Positions 13,742-31,129 of a stretch of 47,836 nucleotides of DNA are shown here, in pieces. The stretch is taken from IMG/VR virus record IMGVR_UViG_3300032222_000321, positions 1-47,836 of that record; one strand, 5' to 3'. A model generated the notes under the pieces. It had not been told where the DNA came from. It saw nothing but the letters and a program-made list of their open reading frames with translations, and made no database searches. Both the position numbers and the translations under genes were made by a program. Position 1 is the stretch's first letter, and every line of letters begins with the position of its first letter. The DNA comes from a virus.

Positions 13742-13908
13742 GGCTCCTCGCTGTCGTTGAACAAGTGCCACTCTGCCTCTTCATCGATCACGTCAGAGAA
13801 TAGGGCGTCGATTCGCTCCCCGATCTCCAACAGCGCAGAGAACACTGCTACACAGGCGGTAAGCAGCATGAACAGCAACACAGCGCAAATGACGAGCAAA
13901 ATGATCAT
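13738..13908 (-). CDS. Small single-pass membrane protein
   Basis: The product has 56 residues: MIILLVICAVLLFMLLTACV and a further hydrophobic stretch form one transmembrane helix (about residues 2-26), followed by an acidic tail (EIGERIDALFSDVIDEEAEW). The ATG overlaps the previous stop as ATGA and the stop overlaps the next start as GTGA. These couplings and the clean frame support a real gene despite the small size. A cysteine at position 19 is not in a clear lipobox. Function unknown. Confidence 0.68.
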   Translation of the reverse strand: MIILLVICAVLLFMLLTACVAVFSALLEIGERIDALFSDVIDEEAEWHLFNDSEEP

Positions 13909-17226: not shown

Positions 17227-17925
17227 TCAAACCTTGCTGCAGGAGCCGCCAGCGTTTTCATAATAGGCGGCGAGGCGATGAGCAGTCATGCGGCGAAGTT
17301 CGTCCATCTGTCGGATTCGTGCTGCGCCGGGGCAAGTCTTACCCCTGTAGATGCTCCACTCCTTGAACTGTGAGTGGTAGCCGATGCCGGTGTCATCCCA
17401 CTTAGTGGGAGCAGTACAGGCGATTTTGTACGCTGCACACTGAACCGTGAGAAGATTAGCCAGTCCAGTGATTTGCTCCACGGGCCAGATGGTTGTATTT
17501 AGCGTCGAAGATCCATTGTCCTGGGTCTCGCAGGAAAGAGCGCCATAAAGGCTGCCATTTCGCCACCAACCATTTGCCTTGGCGTTGCAGTCAGCGCGAC
17601 GGTTAAAAGGGAGCACCTGAACAAGGGTCCCGTCAAGGTTGGAAATAATGTGCGGTTCATGGCTTACGTCAGAGCGAAACATGAACCTCCAGAGAGCATC
17701 CCATGAGGTTTTCTTCGGCCCGGCTTGTGAGTGCATAATGGCGGAGCGAGGTGAAATGAACGGCTGTGTAGCCGCCTCGGGCAGCGGCTTGTACGTGACA
17801 CCAGGGCCATGAAGAACATGCCTTTCGTCTAACCAATACCCGCCCGTTACAAAGCGCAGAATGTCAATTTTGGGAGTCTTTGCGTCTAGGCCGACTCCAG
17901 CAAAACTTGGATGGGGAGCGCTCAT
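17227..17925 (-). CDS. N-acetylmuramoyl-L-alanine amidase endolysin
   Basis: The product has 232 residues. It carries the amidase_2/PGRP pattern: IMHSQAG with H65, HIISNLDGTLVQVLPFNRRADCNAKAN (92-118), SCETQ with E132, GYHSQF with H184 and KTCPG with C198. H65, H184 and C198 would hold the catalytic zinc. The enzyme cuts the bond between muramic acid and the stem peptide at the end of infection. No signal peptide or separate wall-binding domain is evident, so it would need a holin; a holin-like gene lies at 33067-33273. The start overlaps the previous stop as ATGA. Confidence 0.85.
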   Translation of the reverse strand: MSAPHPSFAGVGLDAKTPKIDILRFVTGGYWLDERHVLHGPGVTYKPLPEAATQPFISPRSAIMHSQAGPKKTSWDALWRFMFRSDVSHEPHIISNLDGTLVQVLPFNRRADCNAKANGWWRNGSLYGALSCETQDNGSSTLNTTIWPVEQITGLANLLTVQCAAYKIACTAPTKWDDTGIGYHSQFKEWSIYRGKTCPGAARIRQMDELRRMTAHRLAAYYENAGGSCSKV

Positions 17926-18240: not shown

Positions 18241-18993
18241 ATGATCATTCAAATTATCGGCCTTCCCGGCAGCGGAAAGACCGCACTAGCAAAATCGCTG
18301 ACTGAACGACTGAACGCTATTCTCCTTAATGGGGATGATGTGCGGAGAACTCTTTCCTCAGACCTGTCATTCTCCCCCGAAGATAGGATTGAGCAGGCAA
18401 GGCGCATGGGGGCAGTAGCCGACATCCTCTCGCGACAGGGTCAAATTGTTGTAGCGGACTTTGTATGTCCAACAAGGGCCACCAGAAAAACCTTTGGCTC
18501 TCCCGACATTTTGATTTGGGTTGACCGAATTGATGAGTCAATTTATGAAGACACAAACATGATTTGGGAGCCACCCGATGACGCCCTCAGAATCGCCCCT
18601 GGTCTCACCGTCGAAGAAGAGGCCGACATTGTTATTTCGTTGTGTGGGCTGCACGACTGGAAAGAACCGGTCACGTTGATGCTTGGCCGTTATCAGCCGT
18701 GGCACGAAGGGCATGACTTCATTCAACGGGAAGCGCTCGCTGACGGGGACAAGGTTTTGATCGGCGTGAGAGCAACGTCGGGGACTTCAGAAAAGGATCC
18801 ATTCACGCAGGAAGAAGTGCTCGGCTTTATTCGTGGCAAGGTGAAGAACCCGTTTGTGGTTCGCTTTCCAAACATCACGAGAATTGTCTATGGTCGCGAC
18901 GTTGGCTACAGGATTGACCAAATCGACGCTCCAGCCCATATTGCTGCCATTACGGCAACGGACATTCGCAATAGAATGAAGACTGGTGAGTGA
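18241..18993 (+). CDS. Adenylylsulfate kinase-like / nucleotidyltransferase fusion
   Basis: The product has 250 residues. The N-terminal domain has GLPGSGKT (7-14), NGDDVRR (30-36), FSPEDR (44-49) and VVADFVCPTRATR (70-82), the order of motifs in APS kinase (CysC), which makes PAPS from APS and ATP. The C-terminal domain begins MLGRYQPWHEGH (147-158), an HxGH nucleotidyltransferase signature, and ends ITATDIRNRM (237-246), the ISATxIR-type motif of adenylyl/cytidylyltransferases. A fused nucleotidyltransferase could make APS from ATP and sulfate, but this is inference. The following gene is a sulfotransferase overlapping by 8 bases, so the pair likely makes and uses PAPS. Confidence 0.8.
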   Translation: MIIQIIGLPGSGKTALAKSLTERLNAILLNGDDVRRTLSSDLSFSPEDRIEQARRMGAVADILSRQGQIVVADFVCPTRATRKTFGSPDILIWVDRIDESIYEDTNMIWEPPDDALRIAPGLTVEEEADIVISLCGLHDWKEPVTLMLGRYQPWHEGHDFIQREALADGDKVLIGVRATSGTSEKDPFTQEEVLGFIRGKVKNPFVVRFPNITRIVYGRDVGYRIDQIDAPAHIAAITATDIRNRMKTGE

Positions 18994-19696
18994 GAGCACA
19001 AACGTCTTCAAGCCCATAAAGGGATACTACGTCATTCTGACTTATCCACGATCAGGGGGAACCCTGCTTCAGCGAATCATAGATGCCGACCCGAACGTGA
19101 CGATGCGCGGGGACAATATCTCCGCCGTTAAGTCCATTGTGGAGGCATATCGATCTCTCAAGCAGGCAAAAGAGGTGCTGCCCCCAATCTTTGACTCCGA
19201 CCCAACATGGAGTGGGTCTCCGTTCTACGGCTCACACCTGTATCGAATGGAGTATCTTAGGATTTCCCTAGCGCGATCGATCGTGGATGGGATCCTCGTC
19301 CCGGAAGCAGGTTCTTCGCATGTTGGATTTCGGGACAACTGGTTCGACCCAACAGTCGCAAAGCCTCATGTAGTCGAAGACTTACTGACGAACTTGGAAG
19401 AGTTGCTCCCTGGCGTAACCTTCCTGATCAACGTCCGCGACCCAGAAGAGACCAGCCGTAGTGCGATCTGGAATAATGATCCAGGGTCTAAAGCCAAGAT
19501 CCAGCAGTGGCGTGAATGGCTTTTACATCTACACAACGATAAGATTGTGCAGCGGTCTCACTTGCTTGACTACGACAAGTACAAAGATGACCCCGCTTAC
19601 TTGACTTCAGTTCTGGCTAGCGCTGGGATTCACGTCAAGCCTCTCGTTGTAGCCTCTCTAATGACCGAGCGGCTGACTCATTTACAGAACTTTTGA
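18986..19696 (+). CDS. PAPS-dependent sulfotransferase
   Basis: The product has 236 residues with a GTG start coupled to the kinase gene. VILTYPRSGGTLLQRI (16-31) is the 5'-phosphosulfate-binding loop of sulfotransferases. FLINVRDPEETSRSA (146-160) supplies the R151 and S157 expected for the 3'-phosphate-binding motif. HVGFRDNWF (112-120) and a helical C-terminus (SVLASAGI) complete the family layout. It would transfer sulfate from PAPS to a hydroxyl or amine of an acceptor. The acceptor is unknown; tail proteins, host surface sugars or small molecules are options. No signal peptide, so it acts in the cytoplasm. Confidence 0.82.
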   Translation: MSESTNVFKPIKGYYVILTYPRSGGTLLQRIIDADPNVTMRGDNISAVKSIVEAYRSLKQAKEVLPPIFDSDPTWSGSPFYGSHLYRMEYLRISLARSIVDGILVPEAGSSHVGFRDNWFDPTVAKPHVVEDLLTNLEELLPGVTFLINVRDPEETSRSAIWNNDPGSKAKIQQWREWLLHLHNDKIVQRSHLLDYDKYKDDPAYLTSVLASAGIHVKPLVVASLMTERLTHLQNF

Positions 19697-19709
19697 CCAA
19701 GGAGCACCA

Positions 19710-20042
19710 ATGGACATCAAGGACGTGCCAGTACTGGAGAGCGATCAGGTATCAAGCCTCGGGTTGCCCATCCCGGCACTGAGTGAACCCGTCGCTGAAC
19801 ACGCTCAAGAGTGCAGGATCTCTTACTACGGTGAACCTTTTGCTGTGCGGTGGGACGGATCTGATATGCGCCTAATGAAGCCATTGGTGAGTTCAAATCC
19901 TGCGGTATTTGGGCATATCGTTGTTGGCCACGTTCACTTCGGATCGACATTGCCCAAGTTTCTGGACCCAATCACTATGGAGCGTCAGGCCAATATCGTT
20001 CTCGCCGCTTACCAGGAGGGCCTGAAGGATGCCGAGAAGTAA
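19710..20042 (+). CDS. Hypothetical protein next to sulfotransferase
   Basis: The product has 110 residues. AAGGAG precedes the ATG. The middle is beta-rich (CRISYYGEPFAVRWDGSDMRL) and the C-terminus has GHIVVGHVHFG followed by a helix (MERQANIVLAAYQEGL). The two GH segments do not form a motif I know. Same strand as the sulfotransferase with a 13-base gap, so probably in one transcript. Function unknown. Confidence 0.62.
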   Translation: MDIKDVPVLESDQVSSLGLPIPALSEPVAEHAQECRISYYGEPFAVRWDGSDMRLMKPLVSSNPAVFGHIVVGHVHFGSTLPKFLDPITMERQANIVLAAYQEGLKDAEK

Positions 20043-20085
20043 TTTCCAACCCTGCTAGCATTGGGTTGACCTGAATGGAGGTGCC

Positions 20086-20580
20086 ATGGTTGTCTTGAGA
20101 TACATTACAGACGAGCAAAAATTGGGGCACCTTTACGGAAATCTGCGCGAAATCGAAAAGCGACTACTTCGTACAGCAGTTGCCAATGGAGTAGATGTCA
20201 AATCCTTAAGTCGTGAAACTTTGACGCAGTACGCTTCATTTGATCAGTCCAATGATTACTCGGTTCCTGATTTAGCGGGCGCTGCGGCGGTCTATCTGCG
20301 AATTCGCCGAGACATTGACGCCATCAATGCAGAACACTGGGAATCAATTAATTGGACCATCGAAAAGGAAGATCAGATCCAGGCAGCAACTCAAGGGTTG
20401 TCTCAGATTGAGCAACGGCTAATAACTGCTGCTGCGGCGAGGGGAATCGGACTGGTTGAACTTGAGGGACTTGACGGCTACGAGGGAGAAGAATGGGACG
20501 AACTAAAAGATCTGGCTCGCAAACTTGCAACGGGAACCGATTATGTAGAGACCCTGGAGCAGTCGGTGGAGGGAGTTTGA
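20086..20580 (+). CDS. Hypothetical helical protein with internal duplication
   Basis: The product has 164 residues, largely helical. The segment REIEKRLLRTAVANGVDV (about 21-38) is echoed by SQIEQRLITAAAARGIGL (about 106-123), suggesting two copies of one helical unit. The C-terminus is acidic. GGAGG precedes the ATG. No family is recognised. It begins a run of four short coupled genes of unknown function. Confidence 0.62.
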   Translation: MVVLRYITDEQKLGHLYGNLREIEKRLLRTAVANGVDVKSLSRETLTQYASFDQSNDYSVPDLAGAAAVYLRIRRDIDAINAEHWESINWTIEKEDQIQAATQGLSQIEQRLITAAAARGIGLVELEGLDGYEGEEWDELKDLARKLATGTDYVETLEQSVEGV

Positions 20581-20581
20581 A

Positions 20582-20806
20582 ATGGCGCTCACGAATGATC
20601 AGATTTTCAAAGCAAGGACAGAGGCAATGGAGTTCTTGGAGTACTCCGTTTACGTGCTGGCCCTTCACCTCAATGTAGAGATGCAGGACTTAAGCAGTGA
20701 GTACGTCATCCCCGTACAAGTCGACGACCCCCAGTATTCGCTTTACCTTTCACTGACGAGGCAGGTAACTGCCCTGGAGGTGGCGCAAAATGAAGTTCCT
20801 GACTGA
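20582..20806 (+). CDS. Small hypothetical protein
   Basis: The product has 74 residues: a helical N-terminus (NDQIFKARTEAMEFLEYSVYVLALHL) and a polar C-terminus. GGAGGGAG lies just before the ATG, within the end of the previous gene. It overlaps the next gene by 17 bases. No motif is recognised. Confidence 0.6.
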   Translation: MALTNDQIFKARTEAMEFLEYSVYVLALHLNVEMQDLSSEYVIPVQVDDPQYSLYLSLTRQVTALEVAQNEVPD

Positions 20807-21047
20807 TCGTCTCAACGAAGCGCAGCGGGTCGACCCATCTGTCCCTAAGGACCGCGCAGCAAAGGAGCGCAAACTGCTGCTGCAGTATGACGCTCCCCCG
20901 CAAAAGGACGACTACGGAGATCGGTACGACAAAGTTGTCGTCCTACACAAAAGTACTGGCGGATTTGAGTTCCCAGAAGAAGCAGCAATCTTTTTCTGTG
21001 GACTTGGGAAGCAGATCAATGCTGGACTCACGGAGCGCCACCAGTGA
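20790..21047 (+). CDS. Small hypothetical protein
   Basis: The product has 85 residues, with a charged N-terminus (RVDPSVPKDRAAKERKLLLQYDA) and a beta-like end (DKVVVLHKSTGGFEFPEEAAIFFCGLG). GGAGG precedes the ATG. Its stop overlaps the next GTG as GTGA. No motif is recognised. Confidence 0.6.
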   Translation: MKFLTDRLNEAQRVDPSVPKDRAAKERKLLLQYDAPPQKDDYGDRYDKVVVLHKSTGGFEFPEEAAIFFCGLGKQINAGLTERHQ

Positions 21048-21385
21048 CAATTACGGCACGCCACGAACAGAACTCCCCCATCTATAGCCCAGCAAAAGAG
21101 TTGGAATGGGCCGAGTTCAATCTCGTCAAGATCATGATCATTCTTGGCGTAGATCCAAGCCTGCTGAACTCGGTATCTATTGAGGAGATGACTGAAGCAC
21201 TTGATCTAGCCTTCAAGCCGGTCGACAAGCCAGACACGGTTCAGTCGGAAGAGTCCCCTCGTAGGTCTAACGCTGCTCAGTCATTCCTTAACAAGCAGCG
21301 TACGCACCTCAAGATCATCATGCTGCGGTCGTGGAGACGCCGAAATATAGCACGATGGGAGGTATTCGATGGCGATCCACAGTAG
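21044..21385 (+). CDS. Small hypothetical protein with basic C-terminus
   Basis: The product has 113 residues from a GTG with CGGAG upstream. The middle is helical and hydrophobic (FNLVKIMIILGVDPSLL). The C-terminus is basic (KQRTHLKIIMLRSWRRRNIARW), which could bind nucleic acid. It overlaps the next gene by 17 bases. Function unknown. Confidence 0.58.
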   Translation: MTITARHEQNSPIYSPAKELEWAEFNLVKIMIILGVDPSLLNSVSIEEMTEALDLAFKPVDKPDTVQSEESPRRSNAAQSFLNKQRTHLKIIMLRSWRRRNIARWEVFDGDPQ

Positions 21386-22136
21386 TTACAACAGTGGAAT
21401 CGTAGCGCGCTTCCTGTCCACTGGCCAGACCGGTGCAGAGTACGACCGGAAGATGCAGATTCTTAGGGCCTGGTGCTCCACCGGGCATCAATTAGTGGAG
21501 CGATCAAGCCCAGACAGGCGTCTCATCGCTACCGGAATCGATACATTTATGTGGCAGTACGAGCCACTCAGTGAAGATGTTGCGGCAACATCATGGCTGG
21601 AGATGATGTGGTCGTACGCTTCGGAGGCTAGGGCACTTTTCTCTTCCTTGCGTAGCGGGCTTCATCATCAGAAGATCTTGGCAACCCCACAAGCGCTTGA
21701 CTTTGACGATAAGCCGTTTCTAAACCCAAAAATTGATTTCTATCTCATCAATACATTCTCACTTGAAGTATTTGAGAAGACTTTAGAAACCGTTTGCTCT
21801 CCGGAGGAACAAGAACTCGCAAGATACTGGGCAATTGATTACTCGGATCTACTCAATGGCGAAACAGACCAAATGTTCGACTGCGTTAGGGTTAGCACGT
21901 GGGATGTGCTGGACTTGGACGGCTCCCTCATCCAAGGAGTATTGAACTCCGTAAAGGTGGGCGGCACGGCTTTCATCTACGAGGTTTCGGCCAATGGAGA
22001 TCTTTATAGAGACGCCATGTCTGTGCATGAGATCTACATGTACCAGATCAATAAAGCCGTAGCGGAGCGTAGTGATTTTGAAGTAATCCACCTGCCCACC
22101 GACAGGGGTTACATCATTGCTCGCAGGATTTCATAA
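21369..22136 (+). CDS. Possible methyltransferase-fold protein
   Basis: The product has 255 residues. The C-terminal part (MFDCVRVSTWDVLDLDGSLI ... LNSVKVGGTAFIYEVSANG ... RGYIIARRI) resembles the later strands of class I methyltransferases, where a V-K-x-G-G turn precedes a strand. The usual SAM-binding glycine motif is not obvious in the N-terminal half, so it may be a degenerate or unrelated fold. It lies 9 bases before a 2-oxoglutarate oxygenase gene on the same strand, so it may belong to the same modification pathway. Confidence 0.5.
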   Translation: MAIHSSYNSGIVARFLSTGQTGAEYDRKMQILRAWCSTGHQLVERSSPDRRLIATGIDTFMWQYEPLSEDVAATSWLEMMWSYASEARALFSSLRSGLHHQKILATPQALDFDDKPFLNPKIDFYLINTFSLEVFEKTLETVCSPEEQELARYWAIDYSDLLNGETDQMFDCVRVSTWDVLDLDGSLIQGVLNSVKVGGTAFIYEVSANGDLYRDAMSVHEIYMYQINKAVAERSDFEVIHLPTDRGYIIARRIS

Positions 22137-22145
22137 GGGGCAACA

Positions 22146-23138
22146 ATGACACGTTTGCATGGTACAGTCGCCGCAAATCTTCACGCTTATCACAAACTAG
22201 ATACGGAAGATATTGCTGCAATTTCAACTTTGAGATACACCAACCACATTGGTGGGGTTGTTCACTTTCACAACGTGTTTGAGGTTGATCAATCTTCTAT
22301 TTTGCCTTACATAGACGCCATGGCTTACGTTCCATCTTGCGGACTTGAAATTGTGAAGGACGAAAATGGAAACATGCTGCATGGCCAGACGCTTGACGGC
22401 CAAATCATTAGTATTGACAAGTTGCTTTCGCTTCCGATGCGTGTTGGTGGAGGGGGGATGCCTGAACCCGTAAATCCAACAACGCCGAGCGAGATTTGGC
22501 AGTTCTTTGAATCCATTGAGGAGTGGCTTTATCGTTCACTCATTCGGTATTGCGACTTGTATCCACTGATCGTAAATACAATTTGGTGGAGGATGCGGGG
22601 TCATTGCTTAAAGTATCTCCCAGATGCAAGTCTCGGACTACATAATGACAATGACACAAATACATTTACGATCGATGGACAAAGATATTACTCTCAGCGA
22701 GAGATTGGGATATATCAAGTAGTTAACGCTCTTGCTTACTTCAACGACGAGTACGAAGGGGGAGAAATGCATTTCCCCTATCTCAATCTTACAATCAAGC
22801 CGAAAACTGGCGACATCATCTTTTTCCCCGCCAACTATGTCGGAACACACGGGGTTAGCAAAGTACTTAAAGGAAGTAGGTATTCGTATCTGACCCAGTT
22901 TGGCCACGGGGGGGAGCATCGATACGAAGTTGCTGAGGCGCACCTAAGTGAATCCTGGCTTGCTCCAGTTTTCATTCCCTTCCTGTATCAAGATCACGTA
23001 GCCTTTTCTCATTCAGGCTTCTCGGACTTCAACAACGAGAGGGACGTAGAACTTGGATTTCACGGCTCAACCATTGAGGGTCAGCAGCGGTCATTTGAGG
23101 GGCCAGCGACGGGAACGAAACTCCCCTACAACGACTAG
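22146..23138 (+). CDS. Fe(II)/2-oxoglutarate oxygenase (prolyl hydroxylase-like) A
   Basis: The product has 330 residues with AAGGGG before the ATG. LGLHNDND gives the H166-x-D168 iron ligands, THGVSKV gives the distal H235, and GSRYSY gives R245 for 2-oxoglutarate. YFNDEYEGGEMHFP (198-211) is the typical strand before the distal site. IWWRMRGH (146-153) precedes the HxD and is shared with the oxygenases at 23135 and 24332, so the three are paralogues. Extra N-terminal and C-terminal segments make it the longest. It would hydroxylate a side chain, such as proline. It converges on the leftward oxygenase cluster with a 4-base overlap. Confidence 0.82.
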   Translation: MTRLHGTVAANLHAYHKLDTEDIAAISTLRYTNHIGGVVHFHNVFEVDQSSILPYIDAMAYVPSCGLEIVKDENGNMLHGQTLDGQIISIDKLLSLPMRVGGGGMPEPVNPTTPSEIWQFFESIEEWLYRSLIRYCDLYPLIVNTIWWRMRGHCLKYLPDASLGLHNDNDTNTFTIDGQRYYSQREIGIYQVVNALAYFNDEYEGGEMHFPYLNLTIKPKTGDIIFFPANYVGTHGVSKVLKGSRYSYLTQFGHGGEHRYEVAEAHLSESWLAPVFIPFLYQDHVAFSHSGFSDFNNERDVELGFHGSTIEGQQRSFEGPATGTKLPYND

Positions 23139-23815
23139 CGCTCTTTGTGAGTGAAGGGTTTGGGGCCTTCGATTGTGCCATGCCCGAAGTACTCAAGGTA
23201 AACGGTTCTACGCCCCCCTTGGACCTCCGACACGCGATGGGTGCCAAGGTATCCGGTTGGGTATAGCCAGCATGTTCCCGGCTCTGAGTCAAAGTCCTTG
23301 TCGATGTACTTGAACCCAATCCTGCCGCCACTGCAGTTCTGCTCTACAATCAACACTGCGGTGACGACGTGGAAGATCCCCCGTTCCCACTGGAGTCCCT
23401 TACCTCTAGCAAGTTTCCCCACTCGCTGGTCATGGTGGTAGCCCAGGAAAGCCCCCTGGTGGTAGACGGCGATGTGCCCACGAGACTTCCACCAAATGCT
23501 CCAACGTGATTCAGGGTAGTGATCCACGTAAGAGTGCATGCATTCGTCTGCGGCCTTAGACAAGAAAGCGTTGAATTGCAACTCGTCTTCGGTCGCCCCT
23601 GATTCAAGGTCAATGAATCTCTCTGGCGAAGTGTCGGCGCTCGCCTTGGAGTAAACGTCACCACCCCAACTCTTGAACGAGCCGTCAGCCTGTCTTTCCG
23701 CTTCACTCATTGCAGTCTGTCTGCGACGGTCGACCCACTTTGACGCAAACTCGCTATTGAGTGACAGAGCGTCGCGGAATTGCATGATTCCGTAGCCATG
23801 ATCAATGGCTTCCAT
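23135..23815 (-). CDS. Fe(II)/2-oxoglutarate oxygenase B
   Basis: The product has 226 residues. The ATG at 23815 is chosen because TAATG couples it by one base to the previous gene; an upstream ATG at 23872 would overlap it by 58 bases. IWWKSRGH is followed by LGYHHDQR (H127-x-D129), GTHRV (H193) and GGRRTVY (R202/R203), the complete iron and 2-oxoglutarate site. CSGGRIGFKYID is the conserved strand before it. It is the last gene of the leftward oxygenase cluster. Confidence 0.8.
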   Translation of the reverse strand: MEAIDHGYGIMQFRDALSLNSEFASKWVDRRRQTAMSEAERQADGSFKSWGGDVYSKASADTSPERFIDLESGATEDELQFNAFLSKAADECMHSYVDHYPESRWSIWWKSRGHIAVYHQGAFLGYHHDQRVGKLARGKGLQWERGIFHVVTAVLIVEQNCSGGRIGFKYIDKDFDSEPGTCWLYPTGYLGTHRVSEVQGGRRTVYLEYFGHGTIEGPKPFTHKER

Positions 23816-24309
23816 TATTCGGCTTCCGAAAGCGTTCTCAGTCGCTTTCGCTCCTTCGCTGAACCTTTGCAAATCTCGGGGGTCCAGTAGCCGTTGGTAA
23901 ACAGTGCAGCGACATGGCTAGCACTTACCCCGGAGAGGTACATCGTTCGCTCGTCCGTGTATCCAGGTTTGCCGGGGTGAGGCCAGGCATACAGGGCAGC
24001 CTCCACATAATCGATGGAAGCGTCCTCAAGCATGTACCGAAGATCGATCTCTGATTGAGCACCCCACAGGGAGTTGGCGTCACAGTAGATCCCTTGGTAG
24101 TTCATGTAGCAGGCCTCCTGAGCCAAGAGCGTTGATGTCCCGCCAGACCCGATGCAGAACACGACATCACACTCCACGAAGAGCCGACTCGTCTGGCCAA
24201 GATCAATCATCTTGGCCAGAGCCGCACGCTCTCGGGTTTGCCCTGAGCGTCCATCTAGAGCGCAATAGAGTGAGTTGGTCAGGCCTAGGGAGATTGTGTA
24301 CCCCATCGC
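23815..24309 (-). CDS. Hypothetical protein within oxygenase cluster
   Basis: The product has 164 residues from ATG 24309, preceded by TGGAG. The first half contains RLFVECDVVFCIGSGGTSTLLAQEACY, a strand followed by a glycine-serine turn and helix, as in nucleotide- or sugar-binding Rossmann-like folds. The rest (GIYCDANSLWGAQSEIDLRYML) has no motif I know. Both ends are tightly packed with oxygenase genes, so it probably works in the same pathway. Function unknown. Confidence 0.58.
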   Translation of the reverse strand, partial: AMGYTISLGLTNSLYCALDGRSGQTRERAALAKMIDLGQTSRLFVECDVVFCIGSGGTSTLLAQEACYMNYQGIYCDANSLWGAQSEIDLRYMLEDASIDYVEAALYAWPHPGKPGYTDERTMYLSGVSASHVAALFTNGYWTPEICKGSAKERKRLRTLSEAE

Positions 24310-24331
24310 TCCAGGTTGGGCAATGCCGACC

Positions 24332-25138
24332 TTACTTGCACGATTCAATCGAATAGCCCTTGTCCATGTAGACGTTCGTGGAGATGGAGGCAATATGTGG
24401 ATTGACGAGCGGGTCAACGACATCCTCTCCAACGGCGGGGTTCGGCGTTCCCTGACAGTACCAGCCAAGGTACGAGTATCGCCATCCCCCAGTTACTGGT
24501 CGGACCTCGTGGGCGGCGACATAGTTTGATGGAAAGAAAAGCATGTCGCCCTTGCGTGGGTGGTACGTGATGTCAAGGTATTCAAAGTGGTGGGAGCCGC
24601 CAGTGAAGTTGGTTCCATCCAAGTCCTCTGCCGATTCTGCCTGATCATTGAGGTAGGCGACGACCGAAACGGAATTGCGTGTTGCAATCTGGTCACGTGG
24701 GTGAGGCATGCCGTACGCATAGTCGGTACTTACATCTGAGTGCATGCCCAGATAGGAGCCTTTAGGGTAGGCAACGATGTGGCCCTTGATCTTCCACCAA
24801 ATACACTTTCCTGCAAGAGGAAAATAATGTAGGTAGGACGCGAGGCATTGGTCGCGACGCTCCTCAATGTATGAAAGGGTGGAGATGGCGCGGTCACAGG
24901 AATCGCGATGAACAAAACTGCCTCTCCATGGCATAGCCTCAATGGAGTCAGCGGAGAAAAAGTACTTACTTCTGTTGATGTACCCCTGCTCGCCAGTGAG
25001 TGGGTCTACTCCAGGCTCGTACATCCCGTCACGCTCGCGCTGCAGCACGTCCATGCAGTACTGTCGCATCCAGCCCCAGTTCAACTCAAAAGCATCGCTG
25101 AACAAGACCACACCGCCCCCGAGGTGCTTACCGGTCAT
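24332..25138 (-). CDS. Fe(II)/2-oxoglutarate oxygenase C
   Basis: The product has 268 residues. IWWKIKGH (113-120) leads to LGMHSDVS with H133-x-D135. The distal ligand is H210 (VAAHEVRP) and R220 (GGWRYSY) would bind 2-oxoglutarate. The strand KGDMLFFPSNYV is typical of prolyl hydroxylase-like enzymes. An insertion of about 25 residues (DQAESAEDLDGTNFTGG) sits before the second half. It overlaps the TauD-like gene by 11 bases. Confidence 0.82.
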   Translation of the reverse strand: MTGKHLGGGVVLFSDAFELNWGWMRQYCMDVLQRERDGMYEPGVDPLTGEQGYINRSKYFFSADSIEAMPWRGSFVHRDSCDRAISTLSYIEERRDQCLASYLHYFPLAGKCIWWKIKGHIVAYPKGSYLGMHSDVSTDYAYGMPHPRDQIATRNSVSVVAYLNDQAESAEDLDGTNFTGGSHHFEYLDITYHPRKGDMLFFPSNYVAAHEVRPVTGGWRYSYLGWYCQGTPNPAVGEDVVDPLVNPHIASISTNVYMDKGYSIESCK

Positions 25139-26684
25139 GCTCGTGCTCCCTTAGGTCAACCATGAAGTCGATATAGTCCCTGATGCGCGTGATCACTCTG
25201 AGTCTGTCTTCACTTTCCTCAAGATGATTAAAACAGGCGTACACGGTGTCAATGGCGAACTGAACGAGCCAGTCTTCAGGCGGTTTCTGGCCACCAAACT
25301 GTTCGTAGACGTGAAACGACAGGTTGTGGTAGTCCCACGGCCTGAACTTCAGTTGCTGGTGAGGGAACCAGTCTGGATAGTGCCAGGCGTGCCCGGCATG
25401 CCGCAGGTCAGGACGCCACCGCAAAAGCGTCTTAACCCTTTCGATGGGGGGCGGCTTTCCGTCCTCGCCTCGTCGATCATTGAAAAGATCGTAGGACGCC
25501 CCAAATGCTCCATGAAGATCGCCGTTTCGCCCAAACAAAAACACGCAATCTTCAATGTTATCCTTGGGCAGAAGAGACTCTTTATAGAGGGTCATGTAGC
25601 GCCAAAGCGCCCGAGTGTTGGTTGGGTCAGAGCGAACCAGAACGAGATCGTCAGCGTAGTCATCATCCTTAAACGACTCCATGAAGGTGTTGACTCGCTC
25701 TGCCGATGCTCCTGATTCAGCAAAAGAAACAACAACAACCTTCTGGTAAAGGTGATCCAGCCCTTCAAGTGCTGAGATTCCCTTAGTGAAAACCAGGGGA
25801 ATATGGTCTGGATTCGGCCCGATCGATTTATCCTCGGTCCGACCGGGATGACCAAGGGCTTGTCGATTTGCTTCCGTTAGATCCTGCTGAGTGGGGTCGT
25901 AGTACGGCTGTTCTGCTCCAACTTCGACCCTCTGAAATACTCGGTCTTCGTTTTCCCAGCCGTTATAGAATCCGTGGAGTACGGCTCTGTTGTCCCAAAT
26001 CAACAGATCCCCCTCTTTCCATTCCCACCGAAACCGATGAGCGGGATCAGCGAGGTACCCCCCGACCCATGAGGAAAGTTTTTTCATCCAGGCAGGGTCT
26101 CCTTCCACCAAGGTTGTGCCAGCCCCCAGCCAGTGCAACATTGTTTCCCCTGTTTCAGGGTGAGTCCGTAGCGCAGGATGAGAAACTGAATCCTCTTTTA
26201 TCATTGAGGTAAACCTGGCGGTTGCCAAGTTTGGTTTCAACTCTTCTGGGCAGTCTTGATACATGTTGCTCAGGCTCACAAAAAATGTATGCCCAAAGCG
26301 TGGGTCAACTCTATACCGCGTCATGTGGATTGATACAGCGCACGGGGGGGAGGGCAGGAAAGGATTGTCGATGTGCCAATTTGCCCGCAGAAACTCTTCT
26401 GGATCAGAAGTGTCTAACGTGTTCCGAAGTGTTTTATGCGACTGATCGACGAGCAATCCTGAACGAAAATGCCGATCAGTTTTCCCAGATAGGATGCCTT
26501 GAGTAATTTCCATTTGCTCAACATCTGTTGGGTGCATTCGGATAAATCCAACAACCTTATTGCGCTTGAAAATCTGGTGAAAGTATGCAGCATCATCTAA
26601 AACTTGCTGCGCCGAAACCCCCTTGATTTTGAATCCAAGGTTGCCTAGTTGTAGGCCAACTGCAAGTCCACCGAACTCATCCAT
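25128..26684 (-). CDS. TauD/TfdA-like dioxygenase fused to an unknown domain
   Basis: The product has 518 residues. Residues 1 to about 262 match the TauD/TfdA fold: NWHIDNPF gives H104-x-D106, RAVLHGFYNG gives H237, and EDRVFQRV gives R248/R252. TauD-like enzymes are Fe(II)/2-oxoglutarate oxygenases that act on taurine, alkyl sulfates, carnitine precursors and amino acids. The C-terminal 250 residues (KVVVVSFAESGASAERVNTFM ... VFLFGRNGDLHGAFGASYDLF ...) have no motif I can name. The alkyl-sulfatase activity of some relatives is notable beside a sulfotransferase gene, but the substrate cannot be read from the sequence. Confidence 0.78.
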   Translation of the reverse strand: MDEFGGLAVGLQLGNLGFKIKGVSAQQVLDDAAYFHQIFKRNKVVGFIRMHPTDVEQMEITQGILSGKTDRHFRSGLLVDQSHKTLRNTLDTSDPEEFLRANWHIDNPFLPSPPCAVSIHMTRYRVDPRFGHTFFVSLSNMYQDCPEELKPNLATARFTSMIKEDSVSHPALRTHPETGETMLHWLGAGTTLVEGDPAWMKKLSSWVGGYLADPAHRFRWEWKEGDLLIWDNRAVLHGFYNGWENEDRVFQRVEVGAEQPYYDPTQQDLTEANRQALGHPGRTEDKSIGPNPDHIPLVFTKGISALEGLDHLYQKVVVVSFAESGASAERVNTFMESFKDDDYADDLVLVRSDPTNTRALWRYMTLYKESLLPKDNIEDCVFLFGRNGDLHGAFGASYDLFNDRRGEDGKPPPIERVKTLLRWRPDLRHAGHAWHYPDWFPHQQLKFRPWDYHNLSFHVYEQFGGQKPPEDWLVQFAIDTVYACFNHLEESEDRLRVITRIRDYIDFMVDLREHEHDR

Positions 26685-27408
26685 TACGCGGCTCCTTTAG
26701 CGTGGGGTGATTTACAAACATTGGGCCGATGCGCTCACCATTCTCATTGAGTCCAGTTCTAATACCGCCCATCCAAGTCCAGGGCTGCTCAGTCATCTTG
26801 CGCGCCTTAGCCTCTCCATACCTGGACCGCTCTTGCATAAGGTCTGGCTTGTCCCAGTAGTTCTCCACCGTGAAGTCAACTGCAGGCATAAGCCTGGTGT
26901 CGTAGAACTGAAAGAACATGAATGGCATTCCTGCGGGGAAGCGTACGGGCTGGCCAACCGTAGTGATCTTCCAATTCATGTTGAACTCATCAGGCCACCA
27001 AGAAGACGGGATGTGGGCGGTAAGTGGAACCGCTCCATCAATGAAGTAGTTAGGAGATCCGGACACCCAAGTGGCGATGTTTTCAGGCGTAGAGAACGTC
27101 CATCCAACGTTGAACGACATGATCCCGATAATGCTTGGCTGCACAATGGAGCGCTCGTATGTAGACCCACCGACAGAGAAGGTCATGGTCTCCCCAGAGA
27201 GAACACGTGGGACCGAATAGCCGCCGTCCCACTGGACTACCACGTCCTGCTGTAGCAAGACTTCCCAGCCACTGGTGTTTGCTTCAGTCAGAGGCAGACA
27301 CTTGTAAGCATGCTTCTGATACGTCTCGTCCATCCACGAGCGACGGACAGACCCTTTCTTGATCTCTGGTGGATTTTGGTGAGTCCGGGTCAGGGTGACG
27401 TTGATCAT
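26677..27408 (-). CDS. DUF6065-like protein
   Basis: The product has 243 residues. CLPLTEANTSGWEVLLQQDVVVQWDGG (37-63), then GIMSFNVGWTFSTPE, and FPAGMPFMFFQFYD follow the pattern of DUF6065 proteins, which often lie near oxygenases in biosynthetic clusters. The molecular role of this family is not known to me. The ATG overlaps the previous stop as ATGA and the end overlaps the TauD-like gene by 8 bases, so it is firmly part of the cluster. Confidence 0.62.
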   Translation of the reverse strand: MINVTLTRTHQNPPEIKKGSVRRSWMDETYQKHAYKCLPLTEANTSGWEVLLQQDVVVQWDGGYSVPRVLSGETMTFSVGGSTYERSIVQPSIIGIMSFNVGWTFSTPENIATWVSGSPNYFIDGAVPLTAHIPSSWWPDEFNMNWKITTVGQPVRFPAGMPFMFFQFYDTRLMPAVDFTVENYWDKPDLMQERSRYGEAKARKMTEQPWTWMGGIRTGLNENGERIGPMFVNHPTLKEPRNG

Positions 27409-28025
27409 CTTTGGTGATTTCGGTCGTTGTAGTCGTACATGGTTACGGCCGCGTACTTGGCTCCCGACAGGACGGGACGAGAAGCGTGAGCGTAGATGAA
27501 GTCGCTCGGATGGATAAGCACATCGCCACGCTGTGGCCGAAACTCAAGTTGCTTATAGGGCATGACGTACTCGCCCCCTGCATAGTCGTCGTTCAGGTAA
27601 CCAATCGCAGATACACAGCATGTGTAACTAAAGCCAGAGTCGGGGTGGGTCGCAAAATGCTGCCCCTCTCGGTACCTGACAAAATTGGTTGCTTCCTCAT
27701 AATTGAGTTGAAGGTTGTAGATGTCTGAGTACGCCTTAATACACTCACGGACCCCGCCAACAACCTCTTCGTAGAGAAGTTGAAGATCCAAAAATTCAGG
27801 AGGAACTGGGAGATCCGACTGTCTCATCTTGAAGTCACTGCAGTCGCGGTAGTCCTTCATTACCTGCTGATCCCCGACCAGCGCCTGCCGCCACCTGAAT
27901 GTTTCGTGGGTGCTGTCGGAAAGCCCTGCCTCTAAGCGAGCAACAAACGTCTCGCTGCGCTGCCAAACATCTTTGAAAAGCAGAATGCCATCTTTTTGAC
28001 TTCCAAGAAAGCCAGCCATTTTCAT
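27405..28025 (-). CDS. Fe(II)/2-oxoglutarate oxygenase D (prolyl hydroxylase-like)
   Basis: The product has 206 residues from ATG 28025, which overlaps the previous stop as ATGA; a start at 28067 would overlap further. VRYREGQHFATHPDSGFSYT is a classic prolyl 4-hydroxylase entry strand with H127-x-D129. YLNDDYAGGEYVMP, then FRPQRGDVLIHPSDFIYAH gives H180. The 2-oxoglutarate-binding position reads GAKYAA, so lysine replaces the usual arginine, as in some collagen-type prolyl hydroxylases. It is the most canonical prolyl hydroxylase-like member. Confidence 0.85.
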   Translation of the reverse strand: MKMAGFLGSQKDGILLFKDVWQRSETFVARLEAGLSDSTHETFRWRQALVGDQQVMKDYRDCSDFKMRQSDLPVPPEFLDLQLLYEEVVGGVRECIKAYSDIYNLQLNYEEATNFVRYREGQHFATHPDSGFSYTCCVSAIGYLNDDYAGGEYVMPYKQLEFRPQRGDVLIHPSDFIYAHASRPVLSGAKYAAVTMYDYNDRNHQR

Positions 28026-28660
28026 TTCGTAACCTCTGTAACCGTGTAGAACGATGGGGTCGTCCATCGCTCCCCCCGCAAGACTGGACGCACGCCATGT
28101 AGGTAGTTGATGTCTCCAGGGTGAGCAACGGCCATTCCTGGCTTTACCTCCAATTCAAGGTCAAAGTCTGGGTAATACAATTGACCTCCCTCAAACTCGG
28201 GCGGGCCGTTCCAGTAAATAATCGAATTGATGTCGTAAAGTGGGAATGGGTTTGGAGAGCCATCGTTGAGTTGTTTATCGGCATGCGGCTGCTGCTCATT
28301 GCCAGGCAGCCATCGAATCAAAACTGGTGGGCGGGGGCGAAGTGTAACTTTAAACTTTTCCTCCAGGACTAGTCGCATCTTGTAAATGTAACTGTCTACG
28401 AGGTCGTAAATCTCTGGAGCAAGTCGCTGAATCGTTGATCCACTGCACATCCTGTCCCACCAGTATGAGGCGTCATAAATACACGTGCCGTCATCGCTGA
28501 ACTCGCTAGGTTTAGGGTTATCCCACTCGGTAATCGATTTTGTAAACCGCTGAATGGTCCTAATGTCTTCTTTGCTTACGAAGTCAGTCAAGACAACAAC
28601 ATTGTTTTCACTGCGCCCAAAAAACCCCGGAGCCGTAAGAGATACTTCATCCTCGGTCAT
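28022..28660 (-). CDS. Fe(II)/2-oxoglutarate oxygenase E
   Basis: The product has 212 residues. IRWLPGNEQQPHADKQ gives H126-x-D128, DINYLHGVRPV gives H188, and GERWTT gives R198. IYWNGPPEFEGGQLYYPD (148-165) is the conserved strand pair. It is the first gene of the leftward oxygenase run and lies 71 bases downstream of the PPxF-repeat gene. TTGACG in the spacer could be a -35 element, so the cluster may have its own promoter as well as read-through. Confidence 0.82.
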   Translation of the reverse strand: MTEDEVSLTAPGFFGRSENNVVVLTDFVSKEDIRTIQRFTKSITEWDNPKPSEFSDDGTCIYDASYWWDRMCSGSTIQRLAPEIYDLVDSYIYKMRLVLEEKFKVTLRPRPPVLIRWLPGNEQQPHADKQLNDGSPNPFPLYDINSIIYWNGPPEFEGGQLYYPDFDLELEVKPGMAVAHPGDINYLHGVRPVLRGERWTTPSFYTVTEVTK

Positions 28661-28731
28661 GACCGACTAATGCCTCTCCTAGTAAATGCTTGCGTCAACC
28701 CCTTCAGCCTAGCAGCCCTAAATAACTGTTG

Positions 28732-29145
28732 CTACTTGAATGACGGCGGAAAGTGCGGCGGAAAGTGCGGCGGAAAGTGCGGCGGAAAGTGCGGCGGGAA
28801 GAATGGCGGGAAGTATGGCGGGAAGAATGGCGGGAAGAATGGCGGGAAGTGGGGTGGAAAGAACGGGGGGAAGTGGGGTGGAAAGAACGGACCAATTGCC
28901 CGAACCGTGATCGTCAGCCCGAGGGGGATCTCAAACGATGTGGTGTCAGGAAACGTTACGCCATTGACAATAATCTCAAACGCTTTACCAACATCGGCGT
29001 TGACGGTCGTGTTTTGAGCATTGGACGCCAAAGTGGCAGCAACAAACCCCATACCGACAAGGCTGGTCACGAGCGCAGAAGCGTCGCCAAGGTCGGTGTA
29101 GGTGAACTCCCCTTTATGTACCTCGTCACTGCCCCGGGTGTCCAT
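28732..29145 (-). CDS. Virion-type protein with C-terminal Pro-Pro-X-Phe repeats
   Basis: The product has 137 residues. Residues 1-87 include a helical and beta-rich part (YTDLGDASALVTSLVGMGFVAATLASNAQ, then AFEIIVNGVTFPDTTSFEIPLGLTITVRA). Residues 89-136 are twelve tandem PPxF units, with x being mainly His or Phe, plus one Tyr and one final Ser. The gene lies one base after the OB-fold/fibre gene stop, at the end of the tail operon. Proline-rich repeats next to prolyl-hydroxylase-like genes make this the best candidate substrate (inference). The repeat may form an extended rod or bind the enzymes. Confidence 0.72.
   Translation of the reverse strand: MDTRGSDEVHKGEFTYTDLGDASALVTSLVGMGFVAATLASNAQNTTVNADVGKAFEIIVNGVTFPDTTSFEIPLGLTITVRAIGPFFPPHFPPFFPPHFPPFFPPFFPPYFPPFFPPHFPPHFPPHFPPHFPPSFK
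28738..28881 (-). repeat. Twelve 12-bp tandem repeats coding PPxF
   Basis: On the plus strand the unit reads close to GGCGGAAAGTGC, with a run of identical copies at the 28740 end and variants ending AAT, TAT or TGG further on. The variation is concentrated in the third residue of each unit (His, Phe, Tyr or Ser), while the Pro-Pro and Phe codons are kept. Such tracts can gain or lose units by slippage, which would change the length of the protein tail. Confidence 0.85.
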
Positions 29146-29146
29146 C

Positions 29147-31129
29147 TTAGACCTTAATGTCGCCAGACAGATGCCACGTATCTGTCCCGATCTTGCGCAG
29201 TGTAGCAGTGGAGTACCGGTCTCGCAATCGCCCGCCTACAGCGTTGAGCAGCGTCACGCCACTCAGCGCAGCAACAGTAACCTCTGCAGTGTTCATGCGG
29301 ATAATGGTGAATGTTGTCCCAATGGAGAACGCTACCGACGCATTCGTTGGGATTTGCAGCGAAATGGCTGACGTGTTGTTGCACATCTGGACAAATGTTC
29401 TGTCGGCCAACGCAAACGTTTTTGTGGCGGTAATGTCAGCAGAATACCGCTCTGGAAGGATTGTGTCGGCCGGGAGCGTGACGGTGCCCGTGAATGTGGG
29501 GCTGGCAATGTTGGCCTTCAGGGCAAGCGAGTTCGTTACCGTCGTAGCAAAGTTCGCGTCGTTACCAAGTGCTGCGGCCAACTCGTTCAGTGTGTCAAGG
29601 GCTGCGGGAGCCGCCCCAACAATCTGGGAAACGATGTTCACGTTCACCCACTGCTGAAGGGTATTGTTCCATTGGATTGTTTCGCCGTTTGCAAGACTCG
29701 TCAAGACGACATCGACAACATCGTCCAGTTTTGCAACTGCTGGCGCTGCGCTGTTAACCCAATTGGTGCCGTTGTAGCGAACCACTTGGTTATTAGATGG
29801 GGCTGAGATAACTACGTCAGTTAGGTCGTCCAGCGTTGCGGTCGGAAGAGTGACCCACTTCAGGCCGGTTGCCTCGGCTGAATCCGTGAAGAGGTAGCGA
29901 CCATTGGCCCCAGCAGGAAGTGTTGCTCTCGTTCCGGTTCCCGTTCCGGCGACGATGGCCCCCTTGGAGGAATACTCCGGCTGGAGTACTGCATCTGCAG
30001 CAATTTCAGTGTTTACAAACGCCGTTGTGGCGATCTGAGTTGTATTGGTCCCTTGCGTTGCCGTCGGAGCGGTGGGCACACCGGTTAAAGCGACGCTGCC
30101 GAAGTTGAACGGCGAGGTCACTACGGAAGTTGTTCGCCCGTAGTTGTCAACAGTTACTGAAGAAACGAATGTGGTTGTTGCCGCCCCAGCCGTTGCTGAG
30201 GGTGAAACAGTGGCAAGATCGATAGCGTCAGCCGACATTGCAATTCGTCCCGCCGTACCGACAGCGTTGATAACGTTGCCGGTCATTGTTAAGCCATCAC
30301 CAGCAGTGAAAGCCTGAGCGCCAGTAAACTGAGTGAACTGAATTGGATCGACGCCGATCTGATGCGGCCGATACGTGGAGTTCACGACGAAGCCCTGCCA
30401 GACGTTGGTCGCCCCCGCCGTTACGAAGACGGCTTCTCCTGTATTGACCGCCGCTGGGCCGGAGCCATTGAAGTCCGTTGAGCGCACGAGGGCGTAGCCA
30501 GTTGAGCCACTCCCAGCAACAACAACTACGTAGATTCCGTTTTGGGCTTGCGTAGATTGGTTTTTGATCAGCAGCCGGTCACCAACTGAAACTGCGCCAC
30601 CATCAACCATAAGAGCACCGTTGGTCGTTGCTGTAAGTGTTGCCCCAACCCCAAGAAGACCATTGTCGTATGTTGGCGAGTTTGGGAGCGCTGTGGCTGT
30701 AGCAAACCTGACAGCCTCGTGCCAGTCAAGACCAGCCACCAGGCTGTCCACGTAGGCTTTTGTTGTTGCGTGGTTTGCTGATGAAGGTGGATTGCTGATT
30801 GTCACATTTGCAAACGTCACGCTTGCGGTTGTTGCGATTTCTTCGTTGGTGACAATCACGCTGTGCTGCGCCATGGACGATTTCACTCGCCCCAGTACAA
30901 CCATCTCGTCGTTGACGCCCTCAACAAATGCCACCATGACAACTTCGCCGGGCTTGTAGTCAGCGCCCAAAGCGTCCGAAAGACATTCAATTTCTGCGTG
31001 AATAAAGTCCCCCGTAAGGCGAGGGACCGTAATGCTTAGTCTGTTTTCGTTTGAGTCAACGACAACTCCGTGCATTACCCCCGTTGCCGAAAACGGGACG
31101 GAAGCGGCCTTGAATGGCGAGGTTCTCAT
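29147..31129 (-). CDS. Baseplate/fibre protein with N-terminal OB-like domain
   Basis: The product has 660 residues with GGGAGG before the ATG. Residues about 17-85 (GVMHGVVVDSNENRLSITVPRL ... YKPGEVVMVAFVEG ... MVVLGRVK) match the OB-fold seen in gp5/VgrG-like baseplate proteins. NHATTKAYVDSL (about 120) and IATTAFVNTEI are repeated fibre-type segments (the TTKAYVD motif). TLDDLTDVVISAPSNNQVVRYNGTNWVN occurs as two copies. The C-terminus is a beta-rich tip. It would form part of the baseplate rim or a short fibre. Confidence 0.75.
   Translation of the reverse strand: MRTSPFKAASVPFSATGVMHGVVVDSNENRLSITVPRLTGDFIHAEIECLSDALGADYKPGEVVMVAFVEGVNDEMVVLGRVKSSMAQHSVIVTNEEIATTASVTFANVTISNPPSSANHATTKAYVDSLVAGLDWHEAVRFATATALPNSPTYDNGLLGVGATLTATTNGALMVDGGAVSVGDRLLIKNQSTQAQNGIYVVVVAGSGSTGYALVRSTDFNGSGPAAVNTGEAVFVTAGATNVWQGFVVNSTYRPHQIGVDPIQFTQFTGAQAFTAGDGLTMTGNVINAVGTAGRIAMSADAIDLATVSPSATAGAATTTFVSSVTVDNYGRTTSVVTSPFNFGSVALTGVPTAPTATQGTNTTQIATTAFVNTEIAADAVLQPEYSSKGAIVAGTGTGTRATLPAGANGRYLFTDSAEATGLKWVTLPTATLDDLTDVVISAPSNNQVVRYNGTNWVNSAAPAVAKLDDVVDVVLTSLANGETIQWNNTLQQWVNVNIVSQIVGAAPAALDTLNELAAALGNDANFATTVTNSLALKANIASPTFTGTVTLPADTILPERYSADITATKTFALADRTFVQMCNNTSAISLQIPTNASVAFSIGTTFTIIRMNTAEVTVAALSGVTLLNAVGGRLRDRYSTATLRKIGTDTWHLSGDIKV

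Follow-up and report, generated by a model that had tools for sequence, protein, structure and literature searches.

A phage gene cassette linking prolyl-hydroxylase-like oxygenases to an FPPX-repeat protein of the tail region

The virus record IMGVR_UViG_3300032222_000321 (47,836 bases, viral by its IMG/VR classes and probably a fragment; hereafter the window) carries a cassette in which genes for Fe(II)- and 2-oxoglutarate (2OG)-dependent oxygenases and for a DUF6065 protein accompany a gene whose product, the PPxF protein, ends in twelve Phe-Pro-Pro-X (FPPX) units. Our principal finding is that the linkage between such oxygenases and an FPPX-repeat gene is near-obligate both ways in a diverse set of viral contigs, and searches made from either side are strongly in its favour. 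The simplest reading would be that the PASTA-FPPX protein of the tail region is the substrate of a dedicated prolyl-hydroxylation system, and on balance we expect that the oxygenases do hydroxylate the FPPX tract.

The cassette and its linkage in relatives

The initial annotation had described positions 18241-29145 as an island of protein-modification genes, and the genes it listed are present at the coordinates it gave (open reading frame (ORF) list and Pfam), among them five PF13640 oxygenases, a TauD-like oxygenase, the DUF6065 protein and the (FPPX)12 protein. The cassette and the genes at its borders are as follows.

29147..31129, minus strand: tail fibre protein whose gene lies immediately upstream of that for PPxF (phrog_8745 tail fibre, 3e-33)
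28732..29145, minus strand: PPxF protein, with a diverged PASTA-like N-terminal domain (approximately residues 10-85) and a C-terminal (FPPX)12 tract; the proposed substrate
28022..28660, minus strand: OX5, core 2OG-Fe(II) oxygenase, prolyl-3/4-hydroxylase-like; just below the PF13640 cut-off; HAD...H...R
27405..28067, minus strand: OX4, core 2OG-Fe(II) oxygenase, prolyl-4-hydroxylase-like; above the Pfam cut-off; HPD...H...K
26677..27408, minus strand: DUF6065 protein, cassette core (Pfam 7e-42)
25128..26684, minus strand: TauD-like oxygenase (Pfam 2e-22) with HID, a distal H/R and an additional C-terminal region (about 250 aa)
24332..25138, minus strand: OX3, PF13640 oxygenase (Pfam 3e-12); HSD, H, R; 48-77% identical in relatives
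23815..24306, minus strand: h163, cassette protein found at the same place in relatives (25-51%); start inferred, with a longer frame from 24468; no match in Pfam and NCBIfam searches
23135..23872, minus strand: OX2, PF13640 oxygenase (23.4 bits, cut-off 27); HHD, H, R; 28-42% in relatives; start codon uncertain
22146..23138, plus strand: OX1, PF13640 oxygenase above the Pfam cut-off; HND, H, R; convergent with OX2; 53-68% in close relatives
21369..22136, plus strand: 255-aa protein beside OX1, 22-33% identical in close relatives; no Pfam match

Taken as a single transcription unit, the island does not hold together: positions 18241-23138 are read from the plus strand and 23135-29145 from the minus strand, giving two convergent gene groups. 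The minus-strand enzyme genes share the orientation of the tail fibre genes and lie downstream of them, and the PPxF gene need not end the tail operon, as had been suggested, for the next enzyme gene follows on the same strand after a gap of 71 bp that has no terminator-like site.

Relatives were drawn in two ways, by DUF6065 and by a DNA pattern alone, degenerate and spanning four FPPX units, the latter making no use of enzyme homology; the resulting loci are capped samples of 80 and 120, respectively, which gauge linkage, not abundance. Starting from DUF6065, an FPPX ORF was present in all 31 viral loci with at least 8 kb of upstream sequence and in 43 of the 44 with at least 5 kb (26/26 after dereplication). 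Starting from the repeat, 44 dereplicated loci extended 6 kb or more downstream; PF13640-type homologues were found in 39 of them and DUF6065 in 33, the median distance from the repeat gene to the first homologue being 461 bp. The association of oxygenases with the PPxF gene that the initial annotation had proposed to look for in related phages was thus borne out in both directions, and the controls were clean. Oxygenases occurred at 3.20 per 10 kb in FPPX loci, 0.05 in phage contigs drawn by a collagen-type (GPP)n pattern (6 of 117 such contigs had any) and 0.45 in contigs drawn by the kinase fusion discussed below; FPPX ORFs were absent from all 120 collagen-repeat and all 80 kinase loci. 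For the 12 FPPX loci with no local oxygenase, whole records were checked, and 5 of these contain 5-11 PF13640 genes. Loci L199 and L277 have at least seven PF13640-type homologues in a run after the FPPX gene.

Gene order is also largely retained. Nearly all DUF6065 relatives, down to about 60% identity, have the series fibre, FPPX protein, OX5, OX4, DUF6065, (TauD), OX3 and more, although variants with OX5 inverted occur, and divergent FPPX loci (25-40% identity) have the order FPPX, OX4, OX4', DUF6065, OX5. The fibre homologues usually lie upstream of PPxF as in the window, and the TauD-like oxygenase, 44-56% identical over approximately 525 aa in close relatives, is missing or diverged in others. 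Judged by synteny in relatives and by the controls, the linkage exceeds what chance would give, and PPxF, OX4, OX5 and DUF6065 very probably constitute one functional unit. The carriers are many uncultured, probably aquatic phages; the matches to DUF6065 in GTDB genomes are only two contigs of metagenome-assembled genomes, each with FPPX ORFs, so the host is not fixed.

The oxygenases, the repeat and what may be modified

The PF13640 profile matches five ORFs of the window, three over the Pfam cut-off and two slightly under it, and all five retain the HxD...H...R/K motif; the metal-binding motif of the TauD-like enzyme is likewise intact. In OX4, residues H141, D143, H194 and K204 are invariant among 31 sequences, and in OX5, H126, D128, H188 and R198 among 22. 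Collagen prolyl 4-hydroxylase (P4H) likewise has Lys instead of Arg at its 2OG site, as OX4 does. The best match of OX4 in profile searches of the PDB was the Bacillus anthracis P4H (3e-7), followed by the collagen lysyl hydroxylase LH3, and that of OX5 was human prolyl 3-hydroxylase 1 (4e-8), followed by the B. anthracis enzyme. The AlphaFold2 (AF2) model of OX4 (pLDDT 93.5) has a prolyl-hydroxylase-like fold, its top Foldseek match being an algal P4H with bound (Ser-Pro)5, with further matches to PHD2, vCPH and C-P4H, and VIA Z scores of up to 20 against prolyl hydroxylases of the PHD2 type. By profile, then, OX4 and OX5 are closest to protein prolyl hydroxylases, and OX4 is so by predicted fold too, a kinship that does not in itself prove the substrate.

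The PPxF protein would offer such enzymes an abundant target. It has 12 Pro-Pro pairs, compared with at most 4 in any other of the 32 window proteins counted and 1 in the adjacent fibre. Across 153 distinct ORFs there are on average 14 FPPX units, and up to 34, about 92% of the units having F, H or Y as X. The PPxF gene of the window diverges from that of locus L010 by 0.60 at third codon positions versus 0.25 and 0.19 at the first and second, a 2.4-3-fold excess as in the enzymes, and because third positions diverge most, the gene is kept as a protein, with the repeat under selection at that level. A plus-strand ORF with GGK repeats at 28670-29017 lies opposite the FPPX tract as its antisense; it was judged a repeat artefact and discarded. 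The N-terminal domain of one relative matches PASTA at 26.9 bits (cut-off 23.2), with others near, and no Pfam PASTA (PF03793) match was found in the window's own PPxF protein; the window-type and PASTA-type N-domains align with an hhalign probability of 90%, a match to which the shared FPP end, included in the alignment, contributes. From the position of its gene after the fibre genes, the PPxF product is likely to be part of the virion. Two FPPX-repeat ORFs stand on a single viral contig in L207, L221, L226 and L271. His as X is present in the window's clade and scarce where OX5 is inverted, a clade whose X is F or Y (L036, L041 versus L006-L010), a difference that could reflect either enzyme specificity or descent.

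The most likely scheme is one in which, late in infection, the oxygenases would use O2, Fe(II) and host 2-oxoglutarate to hydroxylate the Pro-Pro pairs of the repeat, and possibly its aromatic or His residues too, with an effect on how stiff or soluble the tract is, or how it binds, while the tail assembles or earlier. We infer here that the repeat serves as substrate, which of its residues would be modified, and what part DUF6065 would play. The broader proposal, that several oxygenases densely hydroxylate a polyproline-aromatic tract (to hydroxyproline and possibly hydroxy-aromatic residues) on a tail-tip or fibre-associated protein, and that this is a widespread phage system, strikes us as evenly poised between right and wrong.

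Several considerations weigh against hydroxylation of the repeat. Linkage alone does not name a substrate, and a fibre protein is usually adjacent as well; the large cassette records have 5 to 9 oxygenases each, a number that seems high for the needs of one repeat. Prolyl hydroxylases are the best studied members of the superfamily and are over-represented among those with solved structures, which biases any search for the nearest structure. PF13640 genes related to these are found in cyanophages and in the kinase contigs with no FPPX gene seen there, so the family has other uses. Seven of the 12 exceptional records have no PF13640 gene, these being 9-38 kb long and possibly fragments. The main caution comes from Paramecium bursaria Chlorella virus 1 (PBCV-1), whose P4H has been characterised and in whose virions hydroxyproline could not be found (PMC7019647); a prolyl hydroxylase encoded by a virus thus need not leave hydroxyproline in the particle. 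The whole case is, moreover, a prediction from DNA.

The number of oxygenase subfamilies and the usual presence of fibre homologues beside the cassette both lend something to a different view, in which the enzymes act on other tail proteins, such as the adjacent fibre, or on host surface proteins, and PPxF is a co-inherited neighbour or a scaffold on which the enzymes dock. We think this unlikely, since the repeat pattern by itself finds the enzymes although the fibres diverge, and the fibre offers a single Pro-Pro pair against the 12 of PPxF.

DUF6065 introduces a further alternative. Its AF2 model (pLDDT 80.6) yielded a Foldseek result in which the best 50 matches were all dUTPases (best E 2e-5), other folds being possible beyond these, and VIA gave a Z of 10 over 116-128 residues, while a sequence search of DUF6065 against the PDB produced no match. 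With a partner whose fold is predicted to be dUTPase-like, a weak Tet_JBP match in OX1 (0.029) and a TauD-like enzyme in the same cassette, the oxygenases might modify nucleotides, DNA or small molecules and travel at the tail site as late-gene cargo, and for cyanophage oxygenases roles in DNA repair or nitrogen signalling have indeed been proposed (PMC3037559). We nevertheless hold this to be quite improbable: the profiles of OX4 and OX5, and the fold of OX4 as well, resemble those of protein prolyl hydroxylases, tight linkage to a single protein of the tail region is unexpected for cargo, and typical dUTPase motifs were not seen in the DUF6065 consensus when it was inspected by eye, without a motif scan. 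Our guess is that DUF6065 is a trimeric beta-clip protein with a role in binding or assembly. Distant relatives of DUF6065 (22-27% identity) lie near the kinase fusion, with no FPPX ORFs, in L133, L146 and L148.

The kinase and sulfotransferase genes and other neighbours

Two plus-strand genes of the island lie to one side of the oxygenases.

18241..18993, plus strand: fusion of an adenosine 5'-phosphosulfate (APS)-kinase-like domain and a nucleotidyltransferase (phrog_10255); a lineage-specific neighbour
18986..19696, plus strand: sulfotransferase-like protein; a lineage-specific neighbour outside the conserved cassette

The former had been called a fusion that forms 3'-phosphoadenosine 5'-phosphosulfate (PAPS). 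An APS-kinase-like domain is indeed present (Pfam APS_kinase 4e-19, residues 2-84; CTP_transf_like 4e-4), but PAPS formation does not follow from it: the kinase half scores 71 bits against the apsK equivalog cut-off of 138.7, its match is confined to the first 84 residues, the second domain matches profiles of NMN adenylyltransferase (MJ0541) and cytidylyltransferase-like proteins, and no ATP sulfurylase domain was found in profile searches of the fusion. The sulfotransferase-like protein has PAPS-site-like motifs visible by eye (YPRSGGTLL and RDPEETSRS), and for the sulfotransferase families (PF13469/PF00685) it reaches a Sulfotransfer_3 score of 24.2 bits, below the cut-off of 27. It aligns with phage sulfotransferases that stand beside the kinase elsewhere, in a profile that itself included the window protein.

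That kinase and sulfotransferase genes overlap, and lie approximately 2.5 kb from OX1, speaks for a joint island, in which the kinase would make PAPS and the sulfotransferase would sulfate hydroxylated residues of PPxF or of the fibre. The pair recurs: the sulfotransferase shares 11 of 80 kinase loci by profile (an earlier motif regular expression gave 5/80, an undercount), mostly in adjacent position. It does so with no PPxF gene in the stretch examined, and joint hydroxylation and sulfation of one target finds no support as a general system. The kinase fusion, with at least 584 matches in viral contigs, is in none of the 80 DUF6065-drawn loci and was likewise not found in the 15 large cassette records, which reach 202 kb, the latter in a search run without a positive control of its own; the sulfotransferase is in 4/80, all of one lineage, and 3/15. 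The sulfation part of the expected co-occurrence therefore failed in the relatives, and, given also the lack of FPPX ORFs in all 80 kinase loci and of the ATP-sulfurylase domain, we consider the joint scheme very improbable. A tryptophan halogenase was seen in 29/80 kinase loci. Kinase and sulfotransferase, together with halogenases, form a second and separate set of phage modification genes, and the pair is a real recurrent unit, plausibly one that makes and uses PAPS; in the window it is a separate addition that happens to adjoin the cassette.

Elsewhere on the minus strand of the window, the 743-aa ORF at 13905-16136 carries an intein (TIGR01443, PF14890, LAGLIDADG_3) that splits an apparent metallophosphoesterase (GGNHGENRE and THGH motifs, by eye), and the ORF at 17227-17925 encodes an Amidase_2 protein, a probable endolysin.

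Comparison with known systems

Neither viral prolyl hydroxylases nor multiple 2OG oxygenases in phages are new, and it is the conserved cassette with an FPPX protein for which we found no description in the open-access literature. Searches of that literature returned nothing that ties several oxygenases to an FPPX-repeat protein of the tail region, no report of the FPPX repeat, no paper on DUF6065, none on PASTA with phage tails and proline-rich sequence, and none that puts a phage sulfotransferase together with an adenylylsulfate kinase. Megablast of the 18-32 kb region against 50,697 phage records found no match, and tblastn found none for the sulfotransferase and the PASTA-PPxF protein, though the BLAST filter masks the repeat and FPPX proteins in cultured phages are possible.

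Reports of multiple 2OG oxygenases in aquatic phages go back to 2010 or earlier, with no substrate established (PMC3037559). Those of cyanophages (phrog_61; Synechococcus and Prochlorococcus phages) resemble the window in belonging to the same superfamily and in occurring in several copies per genome (PMC3037559), and one was matched by structure to the human prolyl hydroxylase EGLN3 (PMC12774648). They differ in that OX4 is just 24-36% identical to those listed, in that the oxygenases of P-SSM4 sit among head, tail-completion and replication genes, and in the partner, tblastn of DUF6065 against the same 50,697 records having found no match. The use of viral prolyl 4-hydroxylases has been termed cryptic (PMC9301287). 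By naming a specific candidate substrate for phage 2OG oxygenases, the linkage described here makes the question of their purpose directly testable.

The cellular enzymes that gave the best PDB profile matches of OX4 and OX5 (B. anthracis P4H, human prolyl 3-hydroxylase 1 and LH3) have collagen-type substrates or EF-Tu, not FPPX. The prophage collagen-like proteins, such as EPcl of E. coli, are akin to PPxF as repeat-tract proteins of phage origin, but they have Gly-X-Y repeats, and collagen-repeat viral contigs have almost no oxygenase linkage; EPcl has been described as unhydroxylated, its host being without the enzymes (PMC3368898). Nearer in kind is vCPH of PBCV-1, a stand-alone, virus-encoded enzyme of the P4H type that acts on Pro-containing peptides (PMC7019647) and whose solved structure Foldseek returned, among others, for OX4, although it is a single enzyme of a eukaryotic algal virus with no known linked cassette and defined repeat substrate. 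Should hydroxylation of the FPPX tract prove true, phages would be modifying their own particles by a post-translational hydroxylation like that of collagen, and DUF6065 would gain a context. Such a system might then be the phage counterpart of collagen or extensin maturation, with DUF6065 as its accessory family, an analogy to which we give as much credence as doubt.

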